From Pleurocapsa minor GSE-CHR-MK 17-07R (lineage in GTDB: Bacteria; Chloroflexota; Anaerolineae; Aggregatilineales; Phototrophicaceae), in assembly GCA_019359125.1 (NCBI GenBank), contig JAHHHY010000001.1, positions 930,001 to 994,000 of the forward strand: DNA of 64,000 bases. Reading direction: 5' to 3'. Shown piece after piece: positions 44,104 through 59,881 of this stretch (the first letter of the stretch is position 1; each line of letters opens with the position of its first letter). The notes under the pieces were generated by a model. It did no database searches. It was not told where the DNA came from and saw only the letters and a list, made by a program, of their open reading frames with translations. Position numbers and translations under genes: made by a program.

Positions 44104-44122
44104 CAATTGGCAATTTACGAGA

Positions 44123-44159: not shown

Positions 44160-44423
44160 CTTGACTGATAATGTTCGAATCCTGTCGCCATGCAGCCGCT
44201 ATAGTTAAGCCAAACTTGACTTCACAACACTAACCTCCCCTGCCCTTTTAAACGTGGCAGTCATTTCCGCACTGAATCTCCGACCTAGCTGCCGGAAGCG
44301 GGGAGGCAAAGGCAATGATTTACACCTTAAATCTACCAGCATCAGATGAAGATTCGGTTCGAAGGAGGTCCATGACCCGGCGGAACCAGCTTCGGCACCA
44401 CCGTTCGGTTATGCTTTTTGGCA
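44160..44423. other. Intergenic region without a recognised gene
   Basis: No convincing reading frame or RNA gene. It lies between the tRNA terminator and the 3' end of the BTAD regulator and marks the left edge of the accessory island. Confidence 0.5.
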
Positions 44424-47363
44424 TTACCATTCCGCGAGTTTCCAGATATCGGGTTTCATTGGGTCACCGCGTAGCCCTACCTGTGCGAAAAAACTAACCG
44501 CCGCTTTCAAATGGATCATCGCCTGTTCGCTTTGGCCCGTAACATGGAACAAGTCCGCCAGGTTATTTTGCAGGGCGGCGGCATGATGCACGTCACCCTG
44601 CTGCAAACAAAGTTCCAGTGCCTCACGGAGAAGCTGTTCCGATCGCGCGTATTCTCCGGAATCAGACAGCGTCAGCGCCAGATTATTGAGCGCGGCAACG
44701 TGCATTCCCCGATCCTCCAGTGTCGCTGCGATACGAAGGCTCTGGCTCAGGTGATCGACAGCCAGATTAAAGACCTCCTGCTTCCGCGCGAGAATACCCA
44801 GGATATTGTGCGCCTGAGCTTTCACGCGCGGAACTTCAGTTTGTTCCGCGATCGTCATCGCTGTTTGCGCCAACCCTTGAGCCGCCTGCGCATCCCCTCG
44901 CGTATACTTGGTGAGACTCCAGTCCGAGAGGAGCGCAGCGCGTTCAACGAGGCCATTTTCCGGCAATCTGCGATAAGCGGAGTTGTAGTAATTTTCGGCT
45001 GTGTCCCATTCTCCCAGTCGATGATAGACACCGGCGAGGGCATGTTCTAACCTGGGCATCAGGCGCTCATCGGCACGGGCGATTCCCGTTTCATAGCTGC
45101 GCAGCGCTGCGCGATAGTCACCAAGCAGTGTGTAGAGATCACCAATTTCCCGATGAACGTCTGGGTTGGTGCTGCCCAGGGCGAGTGCCGTCTCAAAGTG
45201 TGCCAGTGCTTCGCGATTGGCATACATGCTGCGTGCCGAACGCCCGGCCAAAACAAAATATTCAGCGGCCTCTCGTTCCTGGCCACCTGCATAAAAGTGA
45301 GCAGCGATTTGCGCGGCGAGTGCCGGAAGTCTGCCTGTGTGCCGCACACGATTCAGGATCGCCTGTGCCACGCGGCGATGCAGCAGACGACGGCGCGCCA
45401 TACTAGTATCCTGATAGATCACAGCGCGCAGCTTCTCATGATAAAACTCGTACGCGATCATGGAAGCAGACTTGGAAGTCAGATGTTTGTGTGCGGGGTC
45501 AGTATTGGCGGCTTCGCTCAGCACGCCCAGTCGCAAGAGTTCATCCAGCGCATCAACTGCTTCCTCCTCGCTGCGTCCGCTGCATTCGCGCACCAGATCG
45601 AGATCAAACGAGCGACCAATCACGGCGGATGTTTCCAGAATTTGCTGCGCGGTTTCATCGAGGAGGGTCAGACGCGAGCGCACAAGGTCTTGAATGCCCA
45701 TCGGCAGCGACCATTCGGCCTCATCGACTGTCGCAGTATTCGCCCGAAGCAGGGTGAGGTATTCGTGCAAAAACAGCGGAAGTCCTTCTGATTCCTGATA
45801 GAGTCGTTCGGTCAGCGCTTCAGAGTTGGGGATTCCGGCAGCCTTGACGAGCGTGTGAACCGCAGTGCGATCAAGGCGTCGCAGCTGCAGCGTGATCACC
45901 TGACCGATACCGCGCCCATGTTCTGCCAGCAGCAGGCGCAGACGGTGAGAACGCGGCACATCCTCTTTTCGCCAAGTCAGCATCAACAGCAGCGAATCGT
46001 CTGTCACCCTTCGCATCAGATAGGCAAGCAGATCGAGCGTCGCACCATCCGCCCACTGTAAATCCTCAAACACTAAAATGCCCGGCTGTTCCCCCTGAAC
46101 AAGGCACAGCAGCGCGTGGCAGATCGACTCGAACAAGCGAGTTTGCGCACCCGCGCCATCCATCACGGCTGCAGGCGATAAGCCGGGGCGCAGTGCCAGG
46201 ATGTCAGGGAGCAGGCGTGACAGCTCAGCCAGCCAGTGATCAGCCAGCGAATGAAGCCGCTCTCCGTCGCGCATACTGCTGTAGAGCGACCGGATCAACG
46301 GCGCGTAGGCGACACTGGATTCGCTTTCGTAACAGCGAATTTTAAAGACCTGAGCGAAATCGGCGCGTCTTTGCCTGATAAAAGCGTCTGCCAGGCGTGT
46401 CTTGCCAATTCCAGCTTCGCCCTCCAGCACGACAAGCATGTGTGTACTGCCACTTCTGACCTGCTGATAGACTGCCGTTAACCGCCGGATTTCGTCGTCA
46501 CGCCCCACCATCGGCAGTGAGTGCTCTAGTGATGCTGGTTCAGCCTGAGCCTGTCCCTGCTCCTTCGTTTTCCGATCGCTGCCAGCGGCGGCCATAGCCC
46601 GAGACTGAATCGCAGTCTCCAGCACCCTTTGATAGATGCGGGCGGTTTCATCCAACGGCGCCACCCCTAACTCCTGATCAAGAACGCGAACACATTCCTT
46701 ATACTGGCGCATGGCCAGCATCCGCTGGCCTGACCACGCATATAACTGAATCAGGTGAACGTGAGCCGCTTCATGCAGCGGATCGAGCGCCAGCCAGCGC
46801 TGTGCCAGTTCGATGGCACGGCTGTATTCCTCGCGCTGGCTGTGCAGACGCACCAGTTTTTCAAGAGCGCTGGCATAAAGGCGGCGAAAATATTCTGTTT
46901 GTTGAAACTGCCACAGATCGAACTCGGCACTGTCACGCAGCGTAAATCCCTGCAAAAAATCGCCCTTATATGCATCGATGGCTGTGGTCAACGGTTGCAT
47001 GCAGCGCGAACAGCTTTCCTGAGACGTATGTCCGTGTGTTTCACAGCTCAAAATGGATTCGTTAAACAGCACCAGATCACACCACAGACCATTTGAATCG
47101 AAGGCAACCGCTTCCCGTTCGATCGACAGTCCGCTTCCACCGAGCGCGCTGTTCAATGCCGACAAAGTACGGCGGAGTGCGCCGCGTCCACTAACGTTGT
47201 CATTATCTGCCCACAGCAACGCACTTAACGTATCGCGGCTTTGATAGCTCCCCTGCACCACCAGATATGCGATGAGCGCAAGAGCTTTGCGGGTGTCGAC
47301 ATGGACGAGCTGCCGATCACGTTCGATGCGCGGTGCGCCAAGCAGGTGCAGCGAAATGCCCAT
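44424..47363 (-). CDS. SARP/AfsR-like BTAD-AAA-TPR transcriptional regulator
   Basis: A 979-residue regulator. Residues ~4-95: OmpR-type winged helix (HLLGAPRIERD, DTRKALALIAYLVVQG). Residues ~98-250: bacterial transcriptional activation domain (FLQGFTLRDSAEFDLWQ, ALEKLVRLHSQREEYSRAI). Within it, residues 107-121 carry a Cys/His cluster (CETHGH and CSRC). Residues ~283-560: STAND/AAA ATPase with Walker A GEAGIGKTRLA (315-325) and Walker B-like ILVFEDLQWADG. The C-terminal ~350 residues are TPR repeats. This is the AfsR/MalT-like layout of a signal-dependent activator. It is transcribed away from the cupredoxin-like gene. Four downstream promoters carry a SARP-type repeat, so it is the likely controller of the island (inference). 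Confidence 0.88.
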   Translation of the reverse strand: MGISLHLLGAPRIERDRQLVHVDTRKALALIAYLVVQGSYQSRDTLSALLWADNDNVSGRGALRRTLSALNSALGGSGLSIEREAVAFDSNGLWCDLVLFNESILSCETHGHTSQESCSRCMQPLTTAIDAYKGDFLQGFTLRDSAEFDLWQFQQTEYFRRLYASALEKLVRLHSQREEYSRAIELAQRWLALDPLHEAAHVHLIQLYAWSGQRMLAMRQYKECVRVLDQELGVAPLDETARIYQRVLETAIQSRAMAAAGSDRKTKEQGQAQAEPASLEHSLPMVGRDDEIRRLTAVYQQVRSGSTHMLVVLEGEAGIGKTRLADAFIRQRRADFAQVFKIRCYESESSVAYAPLIRSLYSSMRDGERLHSLADHWLAELSRLLPDILALRPGLSPAAVMDGAGAQTRLFESICHALLCLVQGEQPGILVFEDLQWADGATLDLLAYLMRRVTDDSLLLMLTWRKEDVPRSHRLRLLLAEHGRGIGQVITLQLRRLDRTAVHTLVKAAGIPNSEALTERLYQESEGLPLFLHEYLTLLRANTATVDEAEWSLPMGIQDLVRSRLTLLDETAQQILETSAVIGRSFDLDLVRECSGRSEEEAVDALDELLRLGVLSEAANTDPAHKHLTSKSASMIAYEFYHEKLRAVIYQDTSMARRRLLHRRVAQAILNRVRHTGRLPALAAQIAAHFYAGGQEREAAEYFVLAGRSARSMYANREALAHFETALALGSTNPDVHREIGDLYTLLGDYRAALRSYETGIARADERLMPRLEHALAGVYHRLGEWDTAENYYNSAYRRLPENGLVERAALLSDWSLTKYTRGDAQAAQGLAQTAMTIAEQTEVPRVKAQAHNILGILARKQEVFNLAVDHLSQSLRIAATLEDRGMHVAALNNLALTLSDSGEYARSEQLLREALELCLQQGDVHHAAALQNNLADLFHVTGQSEQAMIHLKAAVSFFAQVGLRGDPMKPDIWKLAEW

Positions 47364-47392
47364 TATGAATCATCCCCAGGCTTCACAATGTC

Positions 47393-47412
47393 ACTATATC
47401 CCGAAAGCGTTA
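47393..47412 (-). promoter_or_regulatory. Regulator's own promoter with a TAACGCT half-site
   Basis: On the reverse strand TATAGT (47398-47393) serves as a -10, with CTGTTT 17 nt upstream. TAACGCT (47412-47406) lies inside the spacer and is followed 11 bp on by a weak GGATATA. This is the island's heptamer in the regulator's own orientation, placed where binding could block or modulate its promoter. Confidence 0.5.
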
Positions 47413-47454
47413 CGAAAACAGTACGACGGGAAATCCTGTAACGCCGATTGCCCG

Positions 47455-47485
47455 TAACGCTTGTGGGACGATGATTGCATACGCT
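47455..47485 (+). promoter_or_regulatory. SARP-type promoter A (cupredoxin-like gene)
   Basis: TAACGCT (47455-47461), 4 nt, GGACGAT (47466-47472), 7 nt, TACGCT (47480-47485). The heptamers have an 11-bp period and the second ends 7 bp before the -10. The start codon follows 36 nt later. Same layout as sites B, C and D. Confidence 0.75.
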
Positions 47486-47521
47486 GGCGGCAGGTTCATT
47501 TATTACGAAAGAGGTTCTCCA

Positions 47522-48364
47522 ATGCTTCGCTCGCGCCTTGTCCGTTTAAAACTACTGTGCGTCATAGTCGTATGTGCTGTCCTCGTAAATCTGGTCAATG
47601 CTCAGGATGTCGAACCGCTGGTGATCGCCGCTACCGAAGACGGTATCACGCTGCCAGAAGCCTGGGTTAGCGGTATGACCGCCATTACCCTGCAAAACGA
47701 CACAGAAATTGCCTTCCAACCCACCCTGGCCCGTTTCATCGACGGCGCAACGATGGAAGATTTCACAGCGGCAATGATGGCGCAGGACTTCGCGGGTATG
47801 CTGGCGACAGTCTCGGCGCTCGGCTCGGTTACCGCTGAACCCGGCGAATCTGCCAGCGTCACCTATGATCTTCAGGCTGGCGATTACCTCTTCCTGAACT
47901 TCAGCCCGGCAGGGCCGCCGACTCTCATCCCCTTCACCGTTATGCAGTACGAGGGCGATGCAGTAGAAGCACCGGAGGCCGATGTCGAGATTGTCATGGT
48001 CGATTTCGCCTTTGCGATGCCCGTCGAGCTCACGACCGGCGATGCCGTCTGGCATTTCACCAACGAGGGAGAACAGACGCATGAAATCGTCATCTTCAGC
48101 GTGGACGAGGATGCGACTGTCGAAGGCGTGACAAATGGCGTCACTGAAGCGTTGATGTCCGCGGGACCTGGCGCGCCGCCTGAGTTTCCCTATGAAGAGG
48201 CATTCTCGTTTATAGGGATGAGCCCGGGTGAGAATGCCTGGATGAATGTCAATCTGGAACCTGGGACGTATGCCGCCCTTTGTTTCATCCCCGATGTCGA
48301 ATCAGAAGAAATGACCACGCATTTGGCACACGGCATGATTACGATTTTTACAGTCGGCGAGTAA
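47522..48364 (+). CDS. Secreted cupredoxin-like protein
   Basis: A 280-residue exported protein: signal peptide 1-27 (LLCVIVVCAVLVNLVNAQ), a first beta domain (~28-140) and a second cupredoxin-like domain (~150-280). The second contains a possible copper-site pattern: His in QTHEIVIFSV, then ALCFIPD and THLAHGM supplying Cys, His and Met in the order of blue-copper proteins. I see no close named family, and copper binding is inferred. The ATG at 47522 is preferred because GAGG lies ~8 nt upstream and it leads directly into the signal peptide. It is driven by promoter A and may be cotranscribed with the following TPR gene. Confidence 0.72.
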   Translation: MLRSRLVRLKLLCVIVVCAVLVNLVNAQDVEPLVIAATEDGITLPEAWVSGMTAITLQNDTEIAFQPTLARFIDGATMEDFTAAMMAQDFAGMLATVSALGSVTAEPGESASVTYDLQAGDYLFLNFSPAGPPTLIPFTVMQYEGDAVEAPEADVEIVMVDFAFAMPVELTTGDAVWHFTNEGEQTHEIVIFSVDEDATVEGVTNGVTEALMSAGPGAPPEFPYEEAFSFIGMSPGENAWMNVNLEPGTYAALCFIPDVESEEMTTHLAHGMITIFTVGE

Positions 48365-48469
48365 GGCTTACGACACCCCCTGCCCCTGTTTCCCCTCTCC
48401 GTGCTCAGACGTATGGAGAGAGGAAACTCTACACGAAAGCTTTTCAGATCAGTCACAGCAGGAGTTCCC

Positions 48470-49774
48470 ATGTCTGTCATTCACAGAGTTACTCGCCTCA
48501 CACTCGTTTTCGTCCTGGTCCTGCTGGCGGCCGTCACCAGCGTCAGTGCCCAGGTCGAACCCTGTAACCCGGTTGTCGATTACGCAACAGCCGCCATGAT
48601 TGATTTTGACGGGGGCGACTACGAAGCGTCGCTGCCAAATCTCTATTGCGCGACCGGGCTTGACCCGCAGAATATTGACATACAGGCGGCATATTTCGAG
48701 GCACTTCAACGCACCGGGCATATATCAACCGCGTATGGACCGAGCGCAGTGCTTGGCACACTTGATCCCGCACGCTTCGATCAGATCATTGCGGATGCTG
48801 AAGCGGCGCTGGCAGCTGATCCCACCGACCAGGGAGCGCTCATCATCCTGTGCGGCGCACGCCTGGTGATCGACCAGGCAGAAATTGACCAGCTGCTGGC
48901 GCTTGATCCGGAGAGCGCTGTCGCCTATGCCTACCGCGGGGCAAGCGCGATCTGGACTGGCAGCGATGCAGACGCCGCGCGTGCAGCCATCGAACGCGCC
49001 GTAGAATTGGCGCCGAATGATCCGGAGATTCTGAGCTTTGCCGCTCAGATTCACCTGTTCGGCATTGGCGATACTGAACGAGCGCTGGCGCTCATCGAAC
49101 AGGCGATTGCTGTCGATCCTAATTTTGCACCTGTCTATGCCGACCGCTCCAGCTATTACGCTCAGACAGGCAATCTGGAGATGGCAACCCTGTCGCTCAG
49201 CCAGGCAATTGCGCTCAATCCCTACAATTACACGCAATACAATCAGCGTGGAGTCCTCAGTTTCCAGCAGGAAAACTACCCCGCAGCACTCGACGATTTC
49301 CGCTATGTCTTGAGCGTCAACCCTGCCAGCCCGACAGCACTGGAGTCCATCATCGAAATCAGCCTGCTTACAGGCAGTTTGGAAGACCGAGTCCTGGCGG
49401 CCGACTCATTCCTCAACGCCCGCAGTGAAATCGTAGAAAGCCGACCACTGATCGGGCAGGCACCTATGGCGATATCCATCAATGCCGGACGTATGGTGCG
49501 GGTTCCTGTCCGTCTGGAAGCTGGAAAGACGGTCATCATCAGCGCCGTAGCCTCAGACCCTGCCAGCCTTGACCCGCTGCTGGTGGTGATCGACCCTGCT
49601 GGAGGCGCTGTCTCTTACAATGATGATGTTGATTTGGAAGGTGGAGACTACAGCGCAGTTGTCACAATTACGCCCGAGGTGACCGGTCGTTATTTTCTTC
49701 TCGCCACGCATTCCGGCGCGGGCAGCAGGGGAGAAATGATGATCAGTATCGCAGATGCAGAATTGCGCTTTTGA
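48470..49774 (+). CDS. Secreted TPR protein with C-terminal pre-peptidase-like beta domain
   Basis: A 434-residue exported protein. A signal peptide (1-27) ends at VTSVSAQ. Residues ~40-315 are TPR repeats (SAVAYAYRGASAIWTG, ALALIEQAIAVDPNFAPVYA, NPYNYTQYNQRGVLSFQ). Residues ~340-434 form a PPC-like beta domain (VPVRLEAGKTVIISAVAS, GGDYSAVVTITPEVTGRYF). AGGAG lies 5 nt before the ATG. It may act as an extracytoplasmic scaffold or sensor. The same TPR + beta-domain plan recurs in the gene at 54272-55360, which lacks a visible signal peptide. A terminator follows. Confidence 0.8.
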   Translation: MSVIHRVTRLTLVFVLVLLAAVTSVSAQVEPCNPVVDYATAAMIDFDGGDYEASLPNLYCATGLDPQNIDIQAAYFEALQRTGHISTAYGPSAVLGTLDPARFDQIIADAEAALAADPTDQGALIILCGARLVIDQAEIDQLLALDPESAVAYAYRGASAIWTGSDADAARAAIERAVELAPNDPEILSFAAQIHLFGIGDTERALALIEQAIAVDPNFAPVYADRSSYYAQTGNLEMATLSLSQAIALNPYNYTQYNQRGVLSFQQENYPAALDDFRYVLSVNPASPTALESIIEISLLTGSLEDRVLAADSFLNARSEIVESRPLIGQAPMAISINAGRMVRVPVRLEAGKTVIISAVASDPASLDPLLVVIDPAGGAVSYNDDVDLEGGDYSAVVTITPEVTGRYFLLATHSGAGSRGEMMISIADAELRF

Positions 49775-49797
49775 GTATCGTCGCGGCATCCAGCTCC

Positions 49798-49832
49798 AGC
49801 GGGCACGATGCGTGTGCATCATGCCCGCTTTT
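49798..49832 (+). terminator. Rho-independent terminator
   Basis: A 13-bp stem with one mismatch (49798-49810 with 49817-49829), 6-nt loop, then T-run. It separates the first transcript of the island from promoter B. Confidence 0.8.
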
Positions 49833-49840
49833 ATGCATCG

Positions 49841-49871
49841 TAACGATTGAAGGACGGTGTAAGGGTAGGCT
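49841..49871 (+). promoter_or_regulatory. SARP-type promoter B (membrane protein operon)
   Basis: TAACGAT (49841-49847), 4 nt, GGACGGT (49852-49858), 7 nt, TAGGCT (49866-49871). Spacing is identical to sites A, C and D. It lies 35 nt before the next start codon. Confidence 0.75.
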
Positions 49872-49906
49872 TCAGACAGATTCAACCCCGCATAGAAAGG
49901 TCAAGT

Positions 49907-50362
49907 ATGAACAGCCGTGCAGCACAAAACCACCTTAGCCATAGGTCCAGCATGGGCAGTATTGCCGTCGATGGACTGATTGCCGGGGGCGCTGCGGGCG
50001 TGGCCATGATAGCCTATTTGCTGCCCACCGCTGGCGAAGCACCCGCTGAGTTACTCAGTCGTTTCAGTGGCATGGGGATGCAGCCTTCAGCACTGTTGGG
50101 GGCAGTTGGTCATCTTGCGGTCTGCGCGATCTATGGTATGGCATTCAGCATCCTGTGGCGCGTCGTGCGGGGCAGTGATCGCCGATTCATCCGCGTCATG
50201 GCTGGCATCGTGTACGGGCTGATCCTATTTGTCACAGCTGAGTGGATAATCCTGCCCGCTATACAATCGCCCCTGCTCGATATTCCCGCAGTGCATTGGG
50301 GAATCGCGCACGCAATCTATGGGATCATGCTAGGCTATCTGTATCGATCTGGCCGGAGCTAA
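49907..50362 (+). CDS. Small multi-TM membrane protein of unknown function
   Basis: A 151-residue protein with about four TM segments (GLIAGGAAGVAMIAYLL, LGAVGHLAVCAIYGMAFSIL, MAGIVYGLILFVTAEWIILP, WGIAHAIYGIMLGYLY). No family recognised; it resembles small membrane proteins with a Gly-rich first helix. AGAAAGG precedes the ATG at 49907 by 6 nt. The next gene starts 4 nt after its stop, so it is the first gene of the four-gene membrane operon under promoter B. Confidence 0.7.
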   Translation: MNSRAAQNHLSHRSSMGSIAVDGLIAGGAAGVAMIAYLLPTAGEAPAELLSRFSGMGMQPSALLGAVGHLAVCAIYGMAFSILWRVVRGSDRRFIRVMAGIVYGLILFVTAEWIILPAIQSPLLDIPAVHWGIAHAIYGIMLGYLYRSGRS

Positions 50363-50366
50363 GCCT

Positions 50367-51584
50367 ATGCAAGGCGTGATTATTCGCTCAGAAGCATGGT
50401 TTCGAAGGTTATTATGGGGACTGGTGTGCTACAACATCGTCGTCTGCCTGATAACGTTGATAGACTTTATCCAACATCCAACCGCTTTCAGCCCATACAA
50501 CGCCTTTAATGGAAGCCCGATCTATCGTTGGTTCGTGGTTCTGCTGGCAGGACCCGCAACGATGCTGATTGGTGGGCTGATCCTCCGGCGTACAAAAGGT
50601 AACGTGATTGGGCTGTTGATGATAATCTGGGGTGGCGGACTGTTTGGTTTCGGTATGTCTGTTGAAATTGATCCCCTATGGTACAGCCTGTCTTCGCTGA
50701 TGATCGGCGTAACGTGGGCGGCACTCATTCTCATGCCCCTACTATTTCCCAATGGAAAATCGTTTCCTGCGTGGCTGATGCCAATCCTGTTCGCAAACAT
50801 GCTCACACCGTCGGTGTTAGGCGTGATTACGGTCTTCTCAGCATTTGAAGTGCCAAACTTGGCGGGTGTGCCGCTCAATCCGCTCTATATCGCTGGATTA
50901 GCAGAGATACGCTCCACCCTGTCGGCTTTCTGGACGGTCATCTTTCTGCCGCTGATTCCTGGTGTACTGGTGTCGCCTGTAATGCGCTACCGACGCGCAA
51001 CCCTGCATGAGCGCCAGCAGTTGAAGTGGTTCGTCTGGTGGTCGGCAATCCTGTTCGTCCCTTACCTCCTGTTTTATTTGTGGGCAGTCACACAGTATGC
51101 TGACATCGCGGATGCTCCCCCGATTGTCGCGACGATCGGTAACGCCCTGGTTGGCGTAATTGGTTTGTTCCCTCCCATCGCCATCGGCTATTCCATCCTG
51201 CGCCACCGCCTGTACGACATCGACATCATCATCCGGCGCACGCTGATTTACGCGGTGCTGACAGGTATTCTTGCTATCGTTTACTTCGGCGCGATCATCC
51301 TGACCCAGCAACTCTTACGCGCCGCGACCGGAGAAACCCCGGACATCGCCATTGTCCTCTCCACATTGCTTATTGCCGCGCTGTTCAGCCCCATTCGTCG
51401 GCGCGTGCAGGACGTGATCGACCGCCGCCTGTATCGCCGCAAATATGACATGGAAAAAACACTGGCGGGCTTCCAGCAGACCTTACGCGATGAAGTGGAC
51501 ATGGAGACATTGAAGTCGAATCTGGTGGGCGTGGTCAGCGAAACGATGCAGCCGAACAAGATCGCGCTGTGGGTGAAAGAGTAG
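50367..51584 (+). CDS. Multi-TM sensor-like protein, tandem paralogue 1
   Basis: A 405-residue membrane protein: six to eight TM segments, then the conserved module RLYDIDIIIRRTLIYAVLTG, LFSPIRRRVQDVIDRRLYRR, KYDMEKTLAGFQQTLRDEVD and VVSETMQPNKIALWVKE. In Chloroflexota this module commonly precedes histidine-kinase or GAF domains, so these proteins look like sensors whose output domain is missing or supplied by a partner. It is the first of four paralogues whose C-terminal ~130 residues are nearly identical while the N-terminal halves differ. It starts 4 nt after the previous gene. Confidence 0.78.
   Translation: MQGVIIRSEAWFRRLLWGLVCYNIVVCLITLIDFIQHPTAFSPYNAFNGSPIYRWFVVLLAGPATMLIGGLILRRTKGNVIGLLMIIWGGGLFGFGMSVEIDPLWYSLSSLMIGVTWAALILMPLLFPNGKSFPAWLMPILFANMLTPSVLGVITVFSAFEVPNLAGVPLNPLYIAGLAEIRSTLSAFWTVIFLPLIPGVLVSPVMRYRRATLHERQQLKWFVWWSAILFVPYLLFYLWAVTQYADIADAPPIVATIGNALVGVIGLFPPIAIGYSILRHRLYDIDIIIRRTLIYAVLTGILAIVYFGAIILTQQLLRAATGETPDIAIVLSTLLIAALFSPIRRRVQDVIDRRLYRRKYDMEKTLAGFQQTLRDEVDMETLKSNLVGVVSETMQPNKIALWVKE
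51195..51575 (+). repeat. Homologous C-terminal module, copy 1
   Basis: About 380 nt highly similar to 52383-52763, 53702-54075 and 56295-56675, covering the last TM pair and cytoplasmic tail. Confidence 0.8.
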
Positions 51585-51587
51585 CCA

Positions 51588-52805
51588 ATGCCTAAACAAA
51601 CGCCAAAACGCGACTGGTTTTACTGGGTCATTCTGGCATTTACAGGTGTCCAGCTTGTGTGGACTGCTGGGTTGGTAGTGGACTTCATAATGTATCCACT
51701 CGCCCAAACACTCATGTTTCCATCGTCCATCTTTCGTTTAATTTTGGCACTTCTGATCATGCCGCTCGCATTTTGCACCGCGTTTATCGTCATCAGGCGT
51801 CAACCAACCAGTGTCGTTGGGGTGCTGCTGCTGCTTTGGGGGACTCAGATTGCAAGTGCAACGCTTCGTACAGACAGCTTCTTGTCGAGTTACAGCGGTA
51901 TTGCACTGGGCTGGATTGGGTTTTGGCTGATCCCCTTCTTTTTCCCGGATGGTCGCATTTTCCCCATTCGATGGTCAGGCGTAATTAAAGTTTTGGCGAC
52001 CATACTAATTGTTGCCGCCTGGTTCTATACCCTGACGACTCCCGATTTTGCTTCCAGCACTGTGCTTAATCACTGGTATGTTCCTGCCTTAGCGGCACTG
52101 TTCCCGCTGATCAACATCGTCGAGTCGGCTTCCCTAGTGATGCTCGCAGCCTTCATCATTCCGTCTCTGATGATGCGTTTTCGAGCAGGCAATCTGACGA
52201 CCCGCCGCCAGATGACATGGCTGGGCTGGGTGTTTTCCATCGTAGTATTCGTGGGCCTGCTGCTTGCCCCAACAGGTATTCTACAATCGCCTGTGTCGAG
52301 TTTGAGTACTTTCGAGAGACTTGCCCTGACAGGGTTCACGATTTTCGTCTATCTTTCCCCATACATCGCCGTCAGCAATGCCATCCTGCGTCATCGCCTG
52401 TACGACATCGACATCATTATCCGGCGCACGCTGATCTATTCAGTGCTGACGGGTATTCTCGCCATTGTCTACTTCGGCGCGATCATCCTGACGCAACAGC
52501 TCTTCCGGGCCGCGACCGGCGAAACGCCAGACATCGCCATAGTCATTTCAACTCTGCTGATTGCCGCGCTGTTCAGCCCTGTGCGCCGGCGCGTGCAGGA
52601 CGTGATCGACCGCCGCCTGTATCGCCGCAAATATGACGTGGAAAAAACGCTGGCGGGTTTTCAGCAGACCTTGCGCGATGAAGTGGACATGGAGACGTTG
52701 AAGTCGAATCTGGTGGGCGTGGTCAGCGAAACGATGCAGCCGACCAGGATCGCACTTTGGGTGAAACCTGATGCCGTTTTTCATGCAGCCAACACAGTCG
52801 AATAA
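51588..52805 (+). CDS. Multi-TM sensor-like protein, tandem paralogue 2
   Basis: A 405-residue paralogue starting 3 nt after paralogue 1. The N-terminal TM half (residues ~15-260) differs in sequence from paralogue 1. The C-terminal module (IIIRRTLIYSVLTGILAIV, ALFSPVRRRVQDVIDRRLYR, VVSETMQPTRIALWVKP) is nearly identical. It ends with ~9 extra residues after the shared WVKP. It is probably in one transcript with paralogue 1. Confidence 0.78.
   Translation: MPKQTPKRDWFYWVILAFTGVQLVWTAGLVVDFIMYPLAQTLMFPSSIFRLILALLIMPLAFCTAFIVIRRQPTSVVGVLLLLWGTQIASATLRTDSFLSSYSGIALGWIGFWLIPFFFPDGRIFPIRWSGVIKVLATILIVAAWFYTLTTPDFASSTVLNHWYVPALAALFPLINIVESASLVMLAAFIIPSLMMRFRAGNLTTRRQMTWLGWVFSIVVFVGLLLAPTGILQSPVSSLSTFERLALTGFTIFVYLSPYIAVSNAILRHRLYDIDIIIRRTLIYSVLTGILAIVYFGAIILTQQLFRAATGETPDIAIVISTLLIAALFSPVRRRVQDVIDRRLYRRKYDVEKTLAGFQQTLRDEVDMETLKSNLVGVVSETMQPTRIALWVKPDAVFHAANTVE
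52383..52763 (+). repeat. Homologous C-terminal module, copy 2
   Basis: Very similar at the nucleotide level to copy 1, most clearly through the RLYDIDIIIRRTLIYSVLTG and VVSETMQP regions. Confidence 0.8.
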
Positions 52806-52851
52806 TGTTACAACTTCATACATCTTGATCTGGACTGTCTGAGGTTGTGTC

Positions 52852-54087
52852 ATGATGGTCGCCCCAGCAACAGCAAACCGATTCCGTTATCGAAAGTGGT
52901 ACATCGCCTGGTCCTGCTTTGTCCTGACGCTCGCCGTTATCCTATGCATCGGCATCGAGTACTGGCTGCAACGCCTGGCGTCAATGATCCAGATTGGAGG
53001 CGAGTACCGCATTCTGGCGCTGCTAAATGTGGCCACCATGGTGCTGCTGCTCGGAGTGGTATGCATATCTGCCACGCTGATTTTCTGGAAAGCGCAGTCG
53101 AAAGCAGTGGGTTTGCTCCTTGCGACCACCATGATGCTGTATTGGTCGATGAACAGCACGCCTTTCGACCTACTAACCAAGTCGGAGAACACTCCGCTGG
53201 CGGCCCTGTTTGCTCCGGTGATCCTCACGCTGCGGGCGGCATCGCTTCCGCTTGCTCTCGCGCTGTTGTTTAGTTTTCCAGATGGCAAATTTGCGCCCCG
53301 ATGGTCACGCTGGTTGGTGGCGGCCTATACGCTGCTCACCATGATTTATCTCATTTTTCCCGATTTCCCGACCAATACGGTGTATGGCGCGACCTGGCGA
53401 AAGACGCTGGAGCTCTCGTTCGTCACGGCAACGGTCCCGTTCATGATCGGAATTGTCGCGCAGGTTGTGCGTTTCCGTCGTGCCTCTCCAGAACAGCGCA
53501 GTCAGATCAAATGGACGGCATTAGGCATGACGACAATGGTGGCAGGCACCATCCTGTACTACGCTGTCTACATCCTCTTTCCGCCCACAGCTCTGGATGA
53601 GGGCATTCACCGCCTGGAGCTGCTGCGTCAGCTCATTCAGCTCGTGCTGGCGGTCATCGTGCCAAGCGCGTGCTTTATGATTGCCATCTTTCGTTACCGG
53701 CTGTGGTCGGTCAATAACGTCATCCGCCGTACCCTGATTTATTCTGTGCTGACAACGATTCTCGCGGTGATTTACTTCGGCGGCATCATCCTCACCCAGC
53801 AGATCTTCCGCGCCGCCACGGGCGAAACGCAGGATATCGCCATCGTCATTTCAACCCTTTTGATCGCCGCGCTGTTTTCGCCCATTCGCCGCCGCGTGCA
53901 GAACGTGATCGACCGCCGCTTGTACCGTCGCAAATATGATGTGGAAAAGACGCTGGCAGAATTTCAGCAGAATTTACGCGATGAAGTCGATATGGAGACG
54001 CTGAAGGAAAATCTGGTAGGCGTGGTCAGCGAGACCATGCAGCCGGACAAGATCGCGCTGTGGGTGCGCGAAAGCAGCACAAAATAG
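52852..54087 (+). CDS. Multi-TM sensor-like protein, tandem paralogue 3
   Basis: A 411-residue paralogue, 46 nt after paralogue 2. It has an unusual N-terminal TM block (ALLNVATMVLLLGVVCISATLI) and the FPDGKFAPRWSRW turn typical of this group. The C-terminal module is more diverged than in copies 1, 2 and 4: SVLTTILAVIYFGGIILTQQIF and AEFQQNLRDEVDMETLKENL. The role is unknown but likely the same as its paralogues. Confidence 0.77.
   Translation: MMVAPATANRFRYRKWYIAWSCFVLTLAVILCIGIEYWLQRLASMIQIGGEYRILALLNVATMVLLLGVVCISATLIFWKAQSKAVGLLLATTMMLYWSMNSTPFDLLTKSENTPLAALFAPVILTLRAASLPLALALLFSFPDGKFAPRWSRWLVAAYTLLTMIYLIFPDFPTNTVYGATWRKTLELSFVTATVPFMIGIVAQVVRFRRASPEQRSQIKWTALGMTTMVAGTILYYAVYILFPPTALDEGIHRLELLRQLIQLVLAVIVPSACFMIAIFRYRLWSVNNVIRRTLIYSVLTTILAVIYFGGIILTQQIFRAATGETQDIAIVISTLLIAALFSPIRRRVQNVIDRRLYRRKYDVEKTLAEFQQNLRDEVDMETLKENLVGVVSETMQPDKIALWVRESSTK
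53702..54075 (+). repeat. Homologous C-terminal module, copy 3
   Basis: The most diverged copy of the ~380-nt module, still clearly alignable to copies 1, 2 and 4. Confidence 0.75.
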
Positions 54088-54112
54088 GAAGATTCCTATA
54101 AACGCACAATCG

Positions 54113-54143
54113 TAACGATTTCAGGACTATGGCCTGATACGCT
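54113..54143 (+). promoter_or_regulatory. SARP-type promoter C (TPR gene)
   Basis: TAACGAT (54113-54119), 4 nt, GGACTAT (54124-54130), 7 nt, TACGCT (54138-54143). Same spacing as sites A, B and D. The first ATG of the TPR gene lies 53 nt downstream. Confidence 0.75.
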
Positions 54144-54196
54144 GTTGCTCAGGGTGGATTGCATTGTTTGCCAATTTCATAACAGGAGATGCACAC

Positions 54197-54256
54197 ATGG
54201 CTGAAAACATGGACACCATTTTGACGACAGACACGGAGGCACGTGTCTCGCGCTAG
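54197..54256 (+). other. 5' coding segment ending in an in-frame TAG
   Basis: ATG 54197, with AGGAGA 8 nt upstream, opens 19 codons (MAENMDTILTTDTEARVSR) and then meets TAG at 54254-54256. The frame continues without further stop into the TPR gene. This may be a nonsense mutation, a leader peptide, readthrough or a sequence error. Confidence 0.6.
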
Positions 54257-54271
54257 CGCACACTGGTAAGC

Positions 54272-55360
54272 GTGGGTCACTATCTGCGCTCGAGCGAGCC
54301 GCTGGTGCAGTTGTGGGCAATCGGCGGAGACGAGCTGCTTCAACGCCTTTATGACGAGGCGATACTCCGCTACGAAGCCCAGCCAAAAGACAAATCTCAC
54401 CTGATCTTCGCTGTAAACCTGTCTGACTTTCTGATGCTGCTAGTATGGCGGGCGGCCGTCGAGCGGGTAAAGGCGGATTTGCCGAATCATCCGTTCACCG
54501 AGTTGGTTGTCGGAAGCTATCTGGTGCGCACTGGCGAAAAAGAGGAGGCGAAGCCCTATATGGACCGCGCCTTGGCGATGGATGCCGGCAACCCGGACAT
54601 GGTAGCGATATGTGCCAGCATGTACGCATTGGACTGGAAAATGCCTCAGCGAGGCTTGGAGATGATCCATCAGGCGATGGCGGCTGAACCTGATGTCGCG
54701 TGGTATCACATTGTGCGTGGTGATATCTACGGTATCGCGCTCAACGACCATGCTGCTGCATTCAAGGATTATGACCGCGCGGTTGAACTGTCGCCAGATC
54801 ACTATCCGTTCCGCAATATGCGGGCGGCAGCGCAGATCGAATTAGGAAATCACGCCGCTGCGATTACCGATCTTGAATATGCCCTCAAGGTGAACCCCGA
54901 CAGTCCCAACGGGCGTTTTTCACTGCTTAAATGCTATTTGAGCATCAACGATATGCGCGGCGCGGCAGATGCGCTGCTGGCTCCACGTACTTATTTACAG
55001 GACGTCCGGGCGCTCGATACAGGTGACCCGATCACACTGCCCATCCTGCCAAACCTGACGCATCGCCTTGCATTCAGCGGTAACAGCGGAGAGAGCGTTA
55101 AGATCACCGCGGAAAGTGACGATGCCAGACTGGTTGCGCCATTCACCGCGCTTATTGGTCCGGATGGCAGCGTCATCGCTCACTCTGTCCTGTACGCATC
55201 GCAGGCGGATACACCGGACGCCCGTGTTACCCTGACTGCGGTACTCGCGGACACAGGCAGCTATACCTGTATCGTCTGCCAGAATCTCGGCACATGGGAA
55301 TCATTGGGCGAAGGTGAACTGCGCGTGACACTTACGGTGAATGATCCGCCAGCGTCCTGA
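54272..55360 (+). CDS. TPR protein with C-terminal beta domain (5' end interrupted by TAG)
   Basis: About 362 residues from a GTG at 54272. TPR repeats span ~1-240 (GEKEEAKPYMDRALAMDAGN, HAAAFKDYDRAVELSPDHYP, HAAAITDLEYALKVNPDSPN) and a PPC-like beta domain follows (LAFSGNSGESVKITAES, DTGSYTCIVCQNLG). The same frame extends upstream to the strong start at 54197 but for one TAG codon, so the original protein was probably ~387 residues. No signal peptide is visible, unlike the similar protein at 48470-49774. It has its own promoter C and lies between paralogues 3 and 4. Whether it is still expressed from the GTG is uncertain. Confidence 0.72.
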   Translation: MGHYLRSSEPLVQLWAIGGDELLQRLYDEAILRYEAQPKDKSHLIFAVNLSDFLMLLVWRAAVERVKADLPNHPFTELVVGSYLVRTGEKEEAKPYMDRALAMDAGNPDMVAICASMYALDWKMPQRGLEMIHQAMAAEPDVAWYHIVRGDIYGIALNDHAAAFKDYDRAVELSPDHYPFRNMRAAAQIELGNHAAAITDLEYALKVNPDSPNGRFSLLKCYLSINDMRGAADALLAPRTYLQDVRALDTGDPITLPILPNLTHRLAFSGNSGESVKITAESDDARLVAPFTALIGPDGSVIAHSVLYASQADTPDARVTLTAVLADTGSYTCIVCQNLGTWESLGEGELRVTLTVNDPPAS

Positions 55361-55401
55361 TATAAATGAAGGGATCAAACGAAACTCGACTGTCCCAGAG
55401 T

Positions 55402-55488
55402 TTAATCTAGTTGGCATTACCAGTCATAAGTGTGGTCAGCGAGGCGATGCAACTGAACAAGATCGAGGTGTGGGTGAACGAGAAGTAG
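55402..55488 (+). pseudogene. Remnant 3' end of a fifth multi-TM paralogue
   Basis: The stretch 55431-55488 (GTGGTCAGCGAGGCGATG through TAG) matches the end of paralogue 1 (51533-51584), encoding VVSEAMQLNKIEVWVNEK versus VVSETMQPNKIALWVKE. Weaker similarity (AATCTAGTTGGC) extends back to ~55402. The rest of that gene is missing and the TPR gene occupies its place. Confidence 0.7.
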
Positions 55489-56697
55489 ATGATGAAAGCA
55501 ACACGACTTTTCCGTTTCCTAACCTTTCTGACCATTCCAGTCGCTGTCGGCGCGTTGTTCTTGATAGTTGATTTGGCGCTGCATCCATTTGAACCCAGCA
55601 TAGGCTATCAACCATTCTGGACTCGCTGGGTGTATGGTTCTATCTTCCCAATCGCCAACATCGTGATCGGTGCTCTGTGTATTCGCCGAGTCCGCGACAA
55701 CATCATTGGACCTCTTCTGATCATTTACGGTTCTGGACTCACAGCACAATCAATTCGCGCTGGTTTCGATCCGGCTTTTGGTGCATTACTCTTCTTCGTA
55801 GGCGGTTTTTTGGGGTGGGTTGGTTTTTTTGTGCTGGTACTGTTGTTTCCGAACGGTAAACCCCATCCTCATTGGATGCGCTGGTTTTTAATCGTGGTGC
55901 TCATTATCGCATCGGGTTACGGTGTATTTTTTCCTCTGGGGTCGCCGAACTTCATTTATGGCGCTGACGATGCGCCAAACCGCTTGATCGAGAATCCGTT
56001 TTTTTTACCAACGATGGTACCCATCTATCAAGCGTTCCTTGGAATCATGTCAGCGATATTGTTACCTGTTTTCATTATTCTGCTGCCATTGTCTGTCTTC
56101 TTGCGCTATCGTGCCGCCGGACATCAGGAACGCGCGCAAATTCGCTGGATCTTGTGGGGCGTTCTCGTAATGATGTTAGCAGCTATCGTCCAGAGGATCC
56201 TGGTTGCATTGGAATTGCCAGGGCTTGGCAATACAGTGAGCGCGATCAGTACGACTCTGGTGTTCACATTGCCCGCCCTGGCAGTTAGCAACGCCATCCT
56301 CCGGCACAAGCTGTATGACATCGACATCATCATCCGGCGCACGCTGATCTACTCAGTGCTGACGGGTATTCTCGCTATCGTTTACTTTGGTGCGATCATA
56401 CTCACCCAGCAGCTCTTCCGCGCTGCGACGGGAGAAACGCCAGACATCGCCATTGTCATTTCAACACTATTGATCGCCGGGTTGTTTTCACCCATTCGCA
56501 GACGGGTGCAGAACGTGATCGACCGCCGCCTGTACCGTCGTAAATATGACGTGGAAAATACGCTGGCGGGCTTCCAGCAGACCTTACGCGATGAAGTCGA
56601 TATGGAGACGTTGAAAGCGAATCTGGTCGGCGTGGTCAGCGGCACCATGCAGCCAAACAGGATCGCGCTGTGGGTGCGTGATTCCACTACAAAATAG
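55489..56697 (+). CDS. Multi-TM sensor-like protein, tandem paralogue 4
   Basis: A 402-residue paralogue starting immediately after the TAG of the remnant. N-terminal TM half (residues ~8-265) differs from its paralogues; the C-terminal module (SVLTGILAIVYFGAIILTQQ, LFSPIRRRVQNVIDRRLYRR, VVSGTMQPNRIALWVRD) is almost identical to copies 1 and 2. SETMQP is altered to SGTMQP. No separate promoter is visible, so it is probably transcribed from promoter C with the TPR gene. Confidence 0.78.
   Translation: MMKATRLFRFLTFLTIPVAVGALFLIVDLALHPFEPSIGYQPFWTRWVYGSIFPIANIVIGALCIRRVRDNIIGPLLIIYGSGLTAQSIRAGFDPAFGALLFFVGGFLGWVGFFVLVLLFPNGKPHPHWMRWFLIVVLIIASGYGVFFPLGSPNFIYGADDAPNRLIENPFFLPTMVPIYQAFLGIMSAILLPVFIILLPLSVFLRYRAAGHQERAQIRWILWGVLVMMLAAIVQRILVALELPGLGNTVSAISTTLVFTLPALAVSNAILRHKLYDIDIIIRRTLIYSVLTGILAIVYFGAIILTQQLFRAATGETPDIAIVISTLLIAGLFSPIRRRVQNVIDRRLYRRKYDVENTLAGFQQTLRDEVDMETLKANLVGVVSGTMQPNRIALWVRDSTTK
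56295..56675 (+). repeat. Homologous C-terminal module, copy 4
   Basis: Near-identical to copies 1 and 2 over ~380 nt. Confidence 0.8.
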
Positions 56698-56721
56698 GGG
56701 ATTTCGATGCGTGATACGTCG

Positions 56722-56752
56722 TAACGATGTTAGGACGATCACTCGGTACGCT
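56722..56752 (+). promoter_or_regulatory. SARP-type promoter D (phosphatase/STAS operon)
   Basis: TAACGAT (56722-56728), 4 nt, GGACGAT (56733-56739), 7 nt, TACGCT (56747-56752), spacing as in sites A-C. A 14-nt stretch overlapping it (TGATACGTCGTAAC, 56712-56725) recurs at 56806-56819 inside the next gene. Confidence 0.78.
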
Positions 56753-56774
56753 GGGGTCAAATGGAGGGTCGGGT

Positions 56775-58379
56775 ATGTCCGTTTTAACGGTTCCGCTGCG
56801 CAAACTGATACGTCGTAACCCTGCGCCAGCTTCGGTTCGCGCGGTTGAAACCCGTTCAGCGTCCGTATTGTCTGCCGTCGAGATACTGCCAAACGATCCC
56901 CTGTATTCGTTGTGTCTGAGCGCGTCTGGCGTGATCGATCTGGAAACACTGCGGCTCGAGTCTGACGCAGTCAGGCAGCTGCGCACAGCAGGCATCCGCC
57001 TCCTGATCCCGCTGGTTAATCAGGGTGAACTGGTCGGGATGATTCAGCTTGGCGCGCGCATGAGTGATCAGGAATATACGTCCGACGATCTGCGCCTCCT
57101 GGGCAATCTGGCGCCGCAAGCCGCTGCCGCACTGCGCGTCGCCCATCTGGCGTATCAGCAGCAAGTGGAAGCCCGTCGTCGTGAACGCCTCGATCAGGAA
57201 CTGCGCGTTGCGGGCATTATTCAGCAGACGCTGCTGCCGAAAGCAGTCCCCAGCATCGACGGTTGGCAATTCGCGGCGTACTGGCAGCCCGCGCGCACCG
57301 TCGGTGGTGACTTTTATGATTTCGTCCCGCTGCAGGATGGCCGTTTGATGATCGTCATCGGGGATGTGACCGATAAGGGCGTTCCTGCCGCGCTGGTGAT
57401 GGCATCGACGCGCACGATCCTGCGCGCTGCCGCCGAACGATTGATCTCTCCCGGAGAAATTTTACGCCGCGCCAACGATGTGCTTCACCCCGATATGCCT
57501 CCGAAAATGTTCGTTACCTGTCTGTGCGCTGTTCTTGATCCCCATACCGGGCGGATGCAGTATGCAAATGCAGGCCATAATGCGTCGCTTCAGCGCACCT
57601 GCGACGGTGTGATCGAACTGCGCGCGCGCGGCATGCCCCTGGGCCTGATGCCGGGCATGACCTATGAGGAGAAAGAGACGATTCTCGCGCCAGAGGATAC
57701 GGTGTTCATGTACAGCGATGGGTTGGTAGAAGCCCATGACAGCGAACGCGACATGTTTGGCATGAAACGGCTCGAAACTCTGATCGGGGAGCATCGCGGC
57801 GGAGATGCTTTGATTGCCTATCTGCGCGATGCCCTGTTTAATTTTACGGGCGCAGAATGGGAACAGGAAGACGATGTCACGTTCGTCGTCGTTCAGCGGC
57901 ATATGCAGCCGTCTGCCGATCCTGAATCAGGCGATGGGGACTCGACCGTACTGGATGAATTCGAATCGCCCAGCGAACCGGGCGGCGAACGCGCCGTGAT
58001 GGAGCGCGTTGCCAGAGCGGTTAGCGCCGTGGATTTCCCGCCTGCCCGTATTGAACGCCTGAAAACAGCGGTTGCCGAAACGGTGATGAATGCGATGGAA
58101 CATGGCAATCACTATCGCGCCGATCTGCCGATTAAAGTGCGCGTGCAGGCGGATGCCAGGCGGCTGTCTGTTTTCGTCACCGATCAGGGCGGCGATGTGC
58201 CGATCTCTCAGGCGCCGACCCCTGACCTGGAAGCAAAACTGGCGGGAACACAGTCAGCACGCGGTTGGGGCCTGTTCCTGATCAAGGCGATGGTTGATGA
58301 CCTGCATGTTTCCGCCACGCCTACCGACCATACCGTGCAGCTTGTATTTCATCTGGCAGGAGCTCATGATGCCAAATAA
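56775..58379 (+). CDS. GAF-SpoIIE phosphatase-HATPase fusion (RsbU/RsbW-like switch protein)
   Basis: A 534-residue cytoplasmic protein with opposing activities in one chain. Residues ~30-125: GAF-like sensor domain. ~125-155: coiled linker (RRRERLDQELRVAGIIQQ). ~160-385: PP2C/SpoIIE phosphatase with TVGGDFYDF, VIGDVTDKGVPAALVMA, YANAGHN, MYSDGLVEAHD and EDDVTFVVV. ~405-530: RsbW-type HATPase kinase with AVAETVMNAMEHGNHY and ARGWGLFLIKAMVDD. It should phosphorylate and dephosphorylate a STAS protein; two such genes follow directly. GGAGGG lies 6 nt before ATG 56775; a longer frame from 56727 would run through promoter D. No sigma factor is visible nearby. Confidence 0.87.
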   Translation: MSVLTVPLRKLIRRNPAPASVRAVETRSASVLSAVEILPNDPLYSLCLSASGVIDLETLRLESDAVRQLRTAGIRLLIPLVNQGELVGMIQLGARMSDQEYTSDDLRLLGNLAPQAAAALRVAHLAYQQQVEARRRERLDQELRVAGIIQQTLLPKAVPSIDGWQFAAYWQPARTVGGDFYDFVPLQDGRLMIVIGDVTDKGVPAALVMASTRTILRAAAERLISPGEILRRANDVLHPDMPPKMFVTCLCAVLDPHTGRMQYANAGHNASLQRTCDGVIELRARGMPLGLMPGMTYEEKETILAPEDTVFMYSDGLVEAHDSERDMFGMKRLETLIGEHRGGDALIAYLRDALFNFTGAEWEQEDDVTFVVVQRHMQPSADPESGDGDSTVLDEFESPSEPGGERAVMERVARAVSAVDFPPARIERLKTAVAETVMNAMEHGNHYRADLPIKVRVQADARRLSVFVTDQGGDVPISQAPTPDLEAKLAGTQSARGWGLFLIKAMVDDLHVSATPTDHTVQLVFHLAGAHDAK

Positions 58380-58740
58380 ACCCTTTTCAGCATCTCTGCG
58401 TGAACCGGTGATGCACCTGAACAAGGGCGTGATCATCGATCTGCATGGGGAGATCAACGGCACCGTCGAGGTAGCCCTAAATGCCGCATATGACCGCGCT
58501 GAAGCGGAGGATGTCCACTCGATCGTGCTGAATTTCGGCGGCGTCGACTACATTAACAGCACCGGCATTGCCCTGATCGTTGGGTTACTGGCGCGTGCGC
58601 GCAAATCCAGTCGTTTGTTGATCGTTTTTGGGTTGAGCGATCACTATATGGATATTTTCAATATCACGCGCCTCGTCGATTTCATGAATGTCTATCCCGA
58701 TGAACAATCTGCTGTTGCTCAGCTATCCCAGCTGCAGTAA
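58366..58740 (+). CDS. STAS-domain anti-sigma-factor antagonist, copy 1
   Basis: About 124 residues. The STAS fold is marked by IDLHGEINGTVEVAL and DYINSTGIALIVGLL; Ser65 in NSTG sits at the phosphorylation position of RsbV/SpoIIAA. Its start overlaps the fusion gene by 14 nt, with AGGAG just upstream (ATG 58366 or 58369). It is likely a direct substrate of the fused kinase/phosphatase. Confidence 0.88.
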   Translation: MMPNKPFSASLREPVMHLNKGVIIDLHGEINGTVEVALNAAYDRAEAEDVHSIVLNFGGVDYINSTGIALIVGLLARARKSSRLLIVFGLSDHYMDIFNITRLVDFMNVYPDEQSAVAQLSQLQ

Positions 58741-58762
58741 CCAGAATAGAGGGGGATCAAAA

Positions 58763-59122
58763 ATGACTCCAGGCAAGCTTTCTCTGGCTGTGCGTTCGGT
58801 CGCACAGCACATCAGCATCATCGATATTCATGGTGATGTTACGGGTGCTGCTGATTCCGCCTTGACTGATGCTTATACCAGCGCCAGCACCAGCAGTACG
58901 ATCATCCTGAATTTTACGGCGCTGGAGTATATGAACAGTTCGGGGATTGGGCTGCTGGTCACACTGTTGATTCGGGCACAGCGGCAGGGTCAACGGCTGC
59001 TGGCATTCGGACTGACCGAACACTACCGCGATATCTTCGAGCTCACCCGTCTCAATGAGGCGATCACGTTGTTCAACATTGAAAGCGACGTGCTTGAATC
59101 ACTCAACATTTCTCGCATTTAG
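58763..59122 (+). CDS. STAS-domain anti-sigma-factor antagonist, copy 2
   Basis: A 119-residue STAS protein: IIDIHGDVTGAADSAL and EYMNSSGIGLLVTLL, with Ser59 at the phosphorylation position. GGGGGA lies ~6 nt before the ATG at 58763. It is 22 nt after copy 1. Two paralogous antagonists behind one kinase/phosphatase may give a graded or two-input switch. Confidence 0.88.
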   Translation: MTPGKLSLAVRSVAQHISIIDIHGDVTGAADSALTDAYTSASTSSTIILNFTALEYMNSSGIGLLVTLLIRAQRQGQRLLAFGLTEHYRDIFELTRLNEAITLFNIESDVLESLNISRI

Positions 59123-59140
59123 GAATGAGGAAGTGCCTGA

Positions 59141-59881
59141 ATGAATCCTTCGGATCAGCAACCACGGACACCCCGCGATGCCGAAAACTGGGCAAAGTCG
59201 GTTGATCGTTTGAACGTCACAGGAACACCTACGGGCGCCCTTCACCTGAATGTGCAGGGTCGCCAGACCCTCAGCCCATTAAAGGGTTTCGGGCAGTTAT
59301 GGCAAAAAACCTTTCAAGCCACGCTGGTCGGCAGTAATCATACGCCTGCGGAGATCGTGCGTGTCTGGAAGGAGCGCTTTCCCGAATTTCAGCCGCCAGA
59401 GAATCGATTTTTCCCTTCCGTAACCGGTGTCAAACCCGGTGAAGTCGTTTTGATCAATGCTTCGACTCCTGGAGGAATCATGTCAACCGGCGTGATGGTG
59501 ATGTATTCCGACGAGGATTCTTTCACGTTGATAACGCCACAGGGTCACCCTGAGTCGGGATGGGTCACCTTCAGCGCCTCGCAGGTCGATCAGAATATCG
59601 TCCTTCAGGTGCAAACGCTGGCGCGCGCCAGCGACCCCCTCTATGAAGTCGCTTTCCGCCTCATTGCGTCTGGTATGCAGGATAGAATCTGGCAACACGT
59701 CCTGACAGCTCTGGCAGCTCATTTTGGCGCACCTGCCGTGGTCACATTGACGAAACAATGTGTGGATCCGCGCTTGCAGTGGTCTGAAGTGGGAAACATC
59801 CGCCATAATGCTCAACTTCACACGCTGATCTATACGATAAGTTCGCGTCTGCGAAAGCTTGTCAGGGGTAATGCAACGTAA
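59141..59881 (+). CDS. Hypothetical protein, DUF1990-like
   Basis: A 246-residue soluble protein. The central region [29 protein letters not shown] and [15 protein letters not shown] resembles DUF1990-type proteins (SRPBCC-like fold), where a GHPE.G segment is conserved. The assignment is tentative. It lies 18 nt after the second STAS gene, and its stop overlaps the next start, so it belongs to the promoter D operon and may work with the downstream oxidoreductase. Confidence 0.6.

Follow-up and report, generated by a model that had tools for sequence, protein, structure and literature searches.

The question raised by the locus described here is what controls four operons that share one short operator. 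They lie in a 64,000-nucleotide stretch of the Pleurocapsa minor GSE-CHR-MK 17-07R genome (Chloroflexota; contig JAHHHY010000001.1, forward-strand positions 930,001 to 994,000), called the window below, in an island with a divergent regulator gene (44424-47363) at its edge. The answer that we favour, with a probability of roughly 83%, is that the four sites (A to D) are promoters activated by the product of that gene, an AfsR-like large regulator of the SARP (Streptomyces antibiotic regulatory protein) type, both binding and activation being predictions. The regulon proposed in this way is local and comprises the membrane-sensor and SpoIIE-STAS island.

Four operators of identical geometry

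The pattern TAACGMT-N4-GGACKRT-N7-TASGCT (31 nt) has four exact matches in the window, all on the forward strand:

47455-47485, forward strand: operator/promoter A, TAACGCT N4 GGACGAT N7 TACGCT
49841-49871, forward strand: operator/promoter B, TAACGAT N4 GGACGGT N7 TAGGCT, with an orthologous site in genomes G011 and G146
54113-54143, forward strand: operator/promoter C, TAACGAT N4 GGACTAT N7 TACGCT
56722-56752, forward strand: operator/promoter D, TAACGAT N4 GGACGAT N7 TACGCT, with an orthologous site in genomes G011, G146 and G153

The spacings within the operator are identical across the four copies. When up to 3 mismatches were allowed, A to D were the only matches in the window (0.01 expected; 0 of 100 shuffles reached four) and also in the whole home genome (4,854,942 bases, 98% complete), where a reversed control pattern gave 3 matches. 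The first-pass annotation had described four gapless sites of equal spacing and had proposed the genome scan as a check; the description proved exact at all four positions, and the scan returned the island sites only.

The two heptamers are direct repeats with a period of 11 bp, and 7 nt separate the second one from the inferred −10 hexamer in 4/4 sites (heptamer register), as previously annotated. The proposed correspondence with the published SARP layout was likewise borne out, since the accessible part of the AfsR study gives a repeat period of 11 or 22 bp and a distance of 8 bp to the −10 (PMC10936776). The heptamer core first suggested, xxACGAT, did not hold in every half, the departures being ACGCT in the first half of A, ACGGT in the second half of B and ACTAT in the second half of C. 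The conserved block begins two bases 5′ of the first heptamer (CGTAACG in 4/4 sites). Each site stands before a gene or operon, as had been stated, with the chosen start codon 36 nt (A, 47522), 35 nt (B, 49907), 53 nt (C, 54197) and 22 nt (D, 56775) past the end of the −10-like hexamer.

A scan for sigma-70-like promoters between 44400 and 62000 gave 2 candidates, neither of them at A to D, and a sigma-70-type promoter at these sites was rejected. An Rfam scan of 44000-64000 found one tRNA and no known structured RNA at the sites. Additional CGTAACG half-sites were observed 12-29 bp 5′ of some operators, off multiples of 11 (site A in G000; L086 of G153, before 2109; L122, near 549; L203; L219).

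The divergent regulator and its relatives

44424-47363, reverse strand: regulator P0009, 979 aa, with a SARP domain (about residues 1-250), AAA_16 and TPR (Pfam and structure model)

The BTA domain of P0009 was matched by PF03704 at 68.1 bits (cut-off 22.1), and AAA_16 (2.4e-26) and TPR follow the SARP domain, which is the make-up of a large SARP of AfsR type. NB-ARC was absent among its Pfam matches at 0.001, no Pfam model of an OmpR-type DNA-binding domain matched it, and the domain matches included no LuxR-type or cyclase domain. The model for AfsR itself, NCBIfam NF053617, gave 53.9 bits vs a cut-off of 1430. Nine BTAD matches were found in the home genome.

The predicted structure of residues 1-261 (pLDDT 90.3) resembled the AfsR chain of a promoter complex with RNA polymerase (Foldseek E 3.6e-12, TM 0.69; Z 20.9 over 248 residues) and EmbR (2FEZ, Z 18.9), the next chain standing at Z 11.4; the DNA-binding domain of VicR aligned with residues 1-92 at Z 10.2. 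When a profile of six orthologues was compared with PDB sequences, EmbR was matched at 1.4e-11 (positions 3-256) and AfsR at 6.3e-10 (5-250); they ranked third and seventh, a TPR design being top, and TPR designs matched the helical part only. Searched by sequence in the PDB, residues 1-110 alone gave no match and full-length P0009 gave TPR chains only. Sequence profile and predicted structure indicate that the N-terminus is a SARP domain with an OmpR-type DNA-binding domain ahead of the BTA domain, and the SARP-like regulator gene annotated at the island edge is upheld on these grounds.

Before the start of the regulator gene there is a single heptamer (TAACGCT, 7 nt, TATAGT; 47393-47412, reverse strand), a half-site through which autoregulation is possible. 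Two tRNA-Ser genes (43898-43986 and 44012-44104) lie just past the regulator's end of the island.

The same geometry was found at related regulators, in a set of 80 tblastn matches that start by residue 40, reach residue 120 and have at least 150 bp of upstream sequence; repeated upstream stretches were removed and related loci are still included. A motif-free count of 7-mers repeated (at least 6/7) at periods 7-18 before TAnnnT gave, on the strand facing away from the regulator, 9, 14 and 16 loci for period 11 at spacers 7, 8 and 9, and at most 4 loci at any spacer for other periods. On the regulator's own strand, period 11 reached at most 5 loci and other periods at most 4. The core nnACGn6nnACGn9TAnnnT, the halves of which need be equal only at ACG, was present in 17 of the 80 regions vs 0.075 expected (largest count 1 in 200 shuffles; 1 region on the own strand), with 4 at orthologues and 13 at paralogues. 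In the 13 paralogue operators, comparison of the halves at positions 1, 2 and 6 gave 28 agreements among 39 cases vs 13.0 by permutation (p 5e-5), or 24 among 33 vs 10.4 without two near-duplicates, in a test that ignores kinship among loci, two near-identical site pairs alone having been collapsed. The paralogue operators thus keep the geometry while both halves change together, as though a single protein read the two. Among the 13 paralogous regulators there are 11 at which a plausible start codon lies no more than 90 nt further on, L100 and L190 being ambiguous; judged by eye, the targets resemble small monooxygenases, an OsmC-like protein and secreted proteins.

These data bear on the view that the motif is an extended promoter of an alternative sigma factor of the extracytoplasmic function (ECF) type rather than an activator operator. 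The fixed spacing to a −10-like hexamer and the sigma-regulating SpoIIE/STAS module within the island would suit such a promoter, but its −35 and −10 parts would be unlike and without repeat symmetry, whereas the paralogue halves covary; period 11 is the one period to stand out next to BTAD regulators, and GGAC is too near the −10 for a −35. We consider an ECF-type promoter very unlikely.

In the alignment with AfsR, R64 and S68 of P0009 fall at R87 and S91, which contact phosphates, and R65 and A69 fall at T88 and R92, the two base contacts according to the accessible text of the AfsR study (PMC10936776). The scaffold is conserved but not the residues that would read the bases, which fits a heptamer other than that of AfsR. 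All six orthologues have R64, R65 and S68, and R64 is kept in all 17 regulators with an ACG-core region. Eight helices with R65 pair with TA, GG, GA, GC or TC before ACG, and four Q65-S66-Y68 helices pair with TG, which also occurs with N65 and M65.

Conservation of operator and regulator

Across the 154 genomes of the order, exact matches to the relaxed pattern TAACGNTN4GGACNATN7TANNNT were found in 4 genomes, with at least 2 sites each and 9 matches in total (reversed control, 1); the home genome counts 3 because site B does not fit. A close orthologue of the regulator (about 45-53% identity) occurs in the same 4 genomes, and the next best match has 35% identity (1.9e-104), with the best 5 candidates per genome scored. 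The two sites of G011 precede the orthologous DUF6789-like and SpoIIE genes. In G146, one site lies about 90 bp from the regulator, faces away from it and precedes the DUF6789-like gene, and another precedes SpoIIE; in G153, where short contigs give no uninterrupted view of the island, one site precedes SpoIIE and one another membrane gene. Single matches that 7 other relatives gave when as many as 2 mismatches were allowed were set aside as background, because the reversed control gave 12 in the same 61 genomes. No match to the home operator motif was found in G012, even though D4- and D5-like genes (see the island list below) stand there beside two distant regulators. At that locus (L071) the two regulators are in tandem, and TGACGA-type operators at 6558, 10861 and 11278 precede small monooxygenase-like genes adjoining the D4/D5-like genes.

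In a wider search of the genome collection (best 80 of 124), the full-length relatives among the matches listed were from a Caldilineales metagenome-assembled genome (MAG), Kribbella antiqua and a Nocardioidaceae MAG, and a further one, in a Chloroflexia MAG, was truncated at the edge of its contig. In the Caldilineales MAG an exact match to the relaxed pattern lies between the regulator and a DUF6789-like gene. The Kribbella island holds the regulator, four membrane-paralogue regions, SpoIIE, STAS, STAS and D4; D5 was not found in this island stretch. Its divergent-promoter site reads TAACGATTCTTGCACGGT and the site before SpoIIE TAACGATTCCCGGACGACN7TAGAAA. A pattern built from these two matched, with up to 2 mismatches, the two island sites only in the 8.1-Mb genome (reversed control, 1). 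Within the Kribbella family the regulator was matched at 1e-110 in 8 of 38 genomes, and the 19 columns CCGTAACGATTCTTGCACG are invariant in all 8; the flanks vary yet are also similar.

In the phylum survey (best 2 candidates per genome scored), 50 of 400 Chloroflexota genomes matched the regulator at 1e-110, and 29 orthologue-like loci besides the home genome scored at least 590 bits. A matrix built from 10 sites of 4 genomes was applied at a threshold of 14 bits to 24 orthologue loci (20 of those fetched at length plus L122-L125, other orthologue-like loci lying outside the set); L121, an apparent repeat of the G153 contig, was left out of the counts. There were 25 matches, with at least one in 15 of the 24 loci, vs a mean of 0.2 for shuffles (largest 1 in 20 rounds) and 2 for the reversed matrix. 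The SpoIIE gene is in view in 13 loci. In 11 of these a matrix match precedes it, at 42-339 nt from the tblastn match, and in L240 and L246 TAACGTTCCCGGAACGTT stands at that place. In L232, L247 and L248 the regulator lies behind D5 and the operator still precedes SpoIIE; the site therefore belongs to the target and not merely to the regulator's own control region. In L241 and L242, two operators pointing away from each other were observed between the end of the regulator and SpoIIE; a STAS-like gene follows one of them and SpoIIE the other.

These distributions weigh on two further explanations. Use of the sites by another DNA-binding protein, with the SARP neighbour incidental, draws on the fact that adjacency is no proof and on the three loci in which the regulator is away from the operator. 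Against it stand the sharing of operator and close orthologue by the same 4 of 154 genomes, the joint retention of regulator and sites in Kribbella, and the many related regulators with a divergent site of the same geometry, so that it appears highly improbable. A chance pattern or spread repeat element, for which nothing speaks beyond four similar copies in one island, is practically negligible: only a short motif is shared, it is conserved at the same genes across genomes, and the window and genome scans, the 154-genome co-occurrence, the period-11 and ACG-core counts and the matrix controls refute a chance origin.

It has to be noted that several observations weigh against activation by the SARP neighbour. 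The second half of site C reads ACT instead of ACG, and the halves of the home operator (TA-ACG and GG-ACG) are unlike at positions 1 and 2. The ACG core is lacking in 63 of the 80 regulators, which may use other sequences or layouts, and the divergent site in Kribbella and Nocardioidaceae has no TAnnnT. Among the 24 orthologue loci, 9 had no match at 14 bits; three of these hold a weaker site (L231, L240 and L246), which in L231 stands before its DUF6789-like gene. None was seen at L230, L234, L235, L236, L238 and L243; SpoIIE is in view in none of these six, and the membrane paralogues are in view in L238. Many of the genomes compared are fragmented, and the related loci do not count as independent cases.

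The island and a proposed mechanism

47522-48364, forward strand: operon A, 280-aa protein with a signal-peptide-like start, no Pfam match
48401-49774, forward strand: operon A, TPR protein with a weak PPC match (Pfam)
49907-50362, forward strand: operon B, DUF6789-like membrane protein, just below the Pfam cut-off
50367-54087, forward strand: operon B, three multi-pass membrane paralogues (starts 50367, 51588 and 52852)
54197-55360, forward strand: operon C, TPR protein (Pfam), with an in-frame TAG at 54254-54256, open again from GTG 54272
55489-56697, forward strand: operon C, fourth membrane paralogue
56775-58379, forward strand: operon D, GAF - SpoIIE phosphatase - HATPase_c_2 protein (Pfam)
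58294-59122, forward strand: operon D, two STAS proteins
59141-59881, forward strand: operon D, D4, 246 aa, with a weak DUF1990 match below cut-off
59859-61310, forward strand: operon D, D5, FAD oxidoreductase of the CrtO/CrtI kind (Pfam/NCBIfam)

The four membrane paralogues (50367-51584, 51588-52805, 52852-54087 and 55489-56697) are 86-94% identical over the C-terminal 110 aa (DNA 80-89%) and 24-33% identical in their N-terminal parts. This contrast in sequence suggests a variable sensor with a constant output, the C-termini being perhaps kept alike by gene conversion. Behind site C, the frame runs from the start codon through 19 codons to the TAG, which may represent a nonsense change, a short leader or a sequence error. 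At 61959-62613, several short overlapping frames look by eye like transposase remnants; they are flanked by D5 and by a protein (62791-63273) that matches streptomycin adenylyltransferase.

RsbU, RsbW and RsbV form partner-switching modules, and the island similarly holds a SpoIIE phosphatase, HATPase_c_2 and STAS proteins together. It differs from them in that phosphatase and HATPase are fused and are tied to multi-pass membrane paralogues and an FAD oxidoreductase, with promoters putatively under a SARP.

Among the regulators compared, AfsR of Streptomyces coelicolor with its afs box is alike in its SARP, nucleoside triphosphatase (NTPase) and TPR domains and in two 11-bp direct repeats close 5′ of a poor −10 without a good −35, as far as the accessible part of the study describes them (PMC10936776). 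Here, on the other hand, the NTPase part matches AAA_16, the heptamer core is ACG, the base-contacting positions carry other residues, and a single island without antibiotic genes is the target: Pfam and NCBIfam matches comprise membrane, TPR and SpoIIE/STAS proteins and one FAD oxidoreductase, with none indicating antibiotic biosynthesis. SARP-LAL regulators such as PimR share an N-terminal SARP domain, a large ATP-binding part and heptameric direct repeats, according to the accessible portions of two reports (PMC5930380, PMC3367932), and differ in the LuxR-type or cyclase domain that P0009 lacks among its matches. EmbR of Mycobacterium tuberculosis is similar in its OmpR-type DNA-binding and BTA domains and, as the same part of the AfsR study states, ends in an FHA domain (PMC10936776), in place of which P0009 has AAA_16 and TPR.

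By analogy with AfsR, a signal would reach the AAA_16/TPR part, which would gate the SARP domain. Two active SARP protomers, one per heptamer, would then occupy adjacent positions, one turn of the helix from each other, in the place of the −35 element, adapt the sigma factor to the promoter and hold RNA polymerase on the poor −10 (TASGCT), so that the four operons would switch on together. The regulator might instead bind the sites mainly as a repressor or dual switch, since the direction of control is unreadable from sequence and a protein bound next to the −10 might also obstruct polymerase. We regard this as unlikely, given that the geometry is that of AfsR, described as an activator in the accessible text (PMC10936776), and that the sites have no good −35 with which to work unaided.

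With activation by the neighbouring SARP as the preferred explanation, what appears to be new is an ACG-core recognition class outside actinomycetes and on non-antibiotic genes, for which no earlier description was found in the open-licence literature as far as searched; the SARP promoters in the literature found, to the extent that its accessible text covers them, are those of antibiotic genes in actinomycetes. Genome comparison shows this promoter architecture, built on a different recognition core, in Chloroflexota as well, tied to a conserved membrane-sensor/SpoIIE-STAS island. The target operons of uncharacterised BTAD-ATPase-TPR proteins become predictable from sequence, natural pairs of recognition helix and operator are available for a code, and the island can be put to the test in a named strain, Kribbella antiqua. 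More broadly, ACG-reading large SARPs may be a general means of operon-specific activation in Chloroflexota, in which an own 11-bp repeat pair replaces the −35 of each divergent target, helix residues 65-68 (P0009) set the bases flanking ACG, and one such unit is common to Chloroflexota and Kribbella; for this wider proposal we see the odds as even. If it is true, SARP control extends far beyond actinomycete antibiotics, with a readable recognition code.

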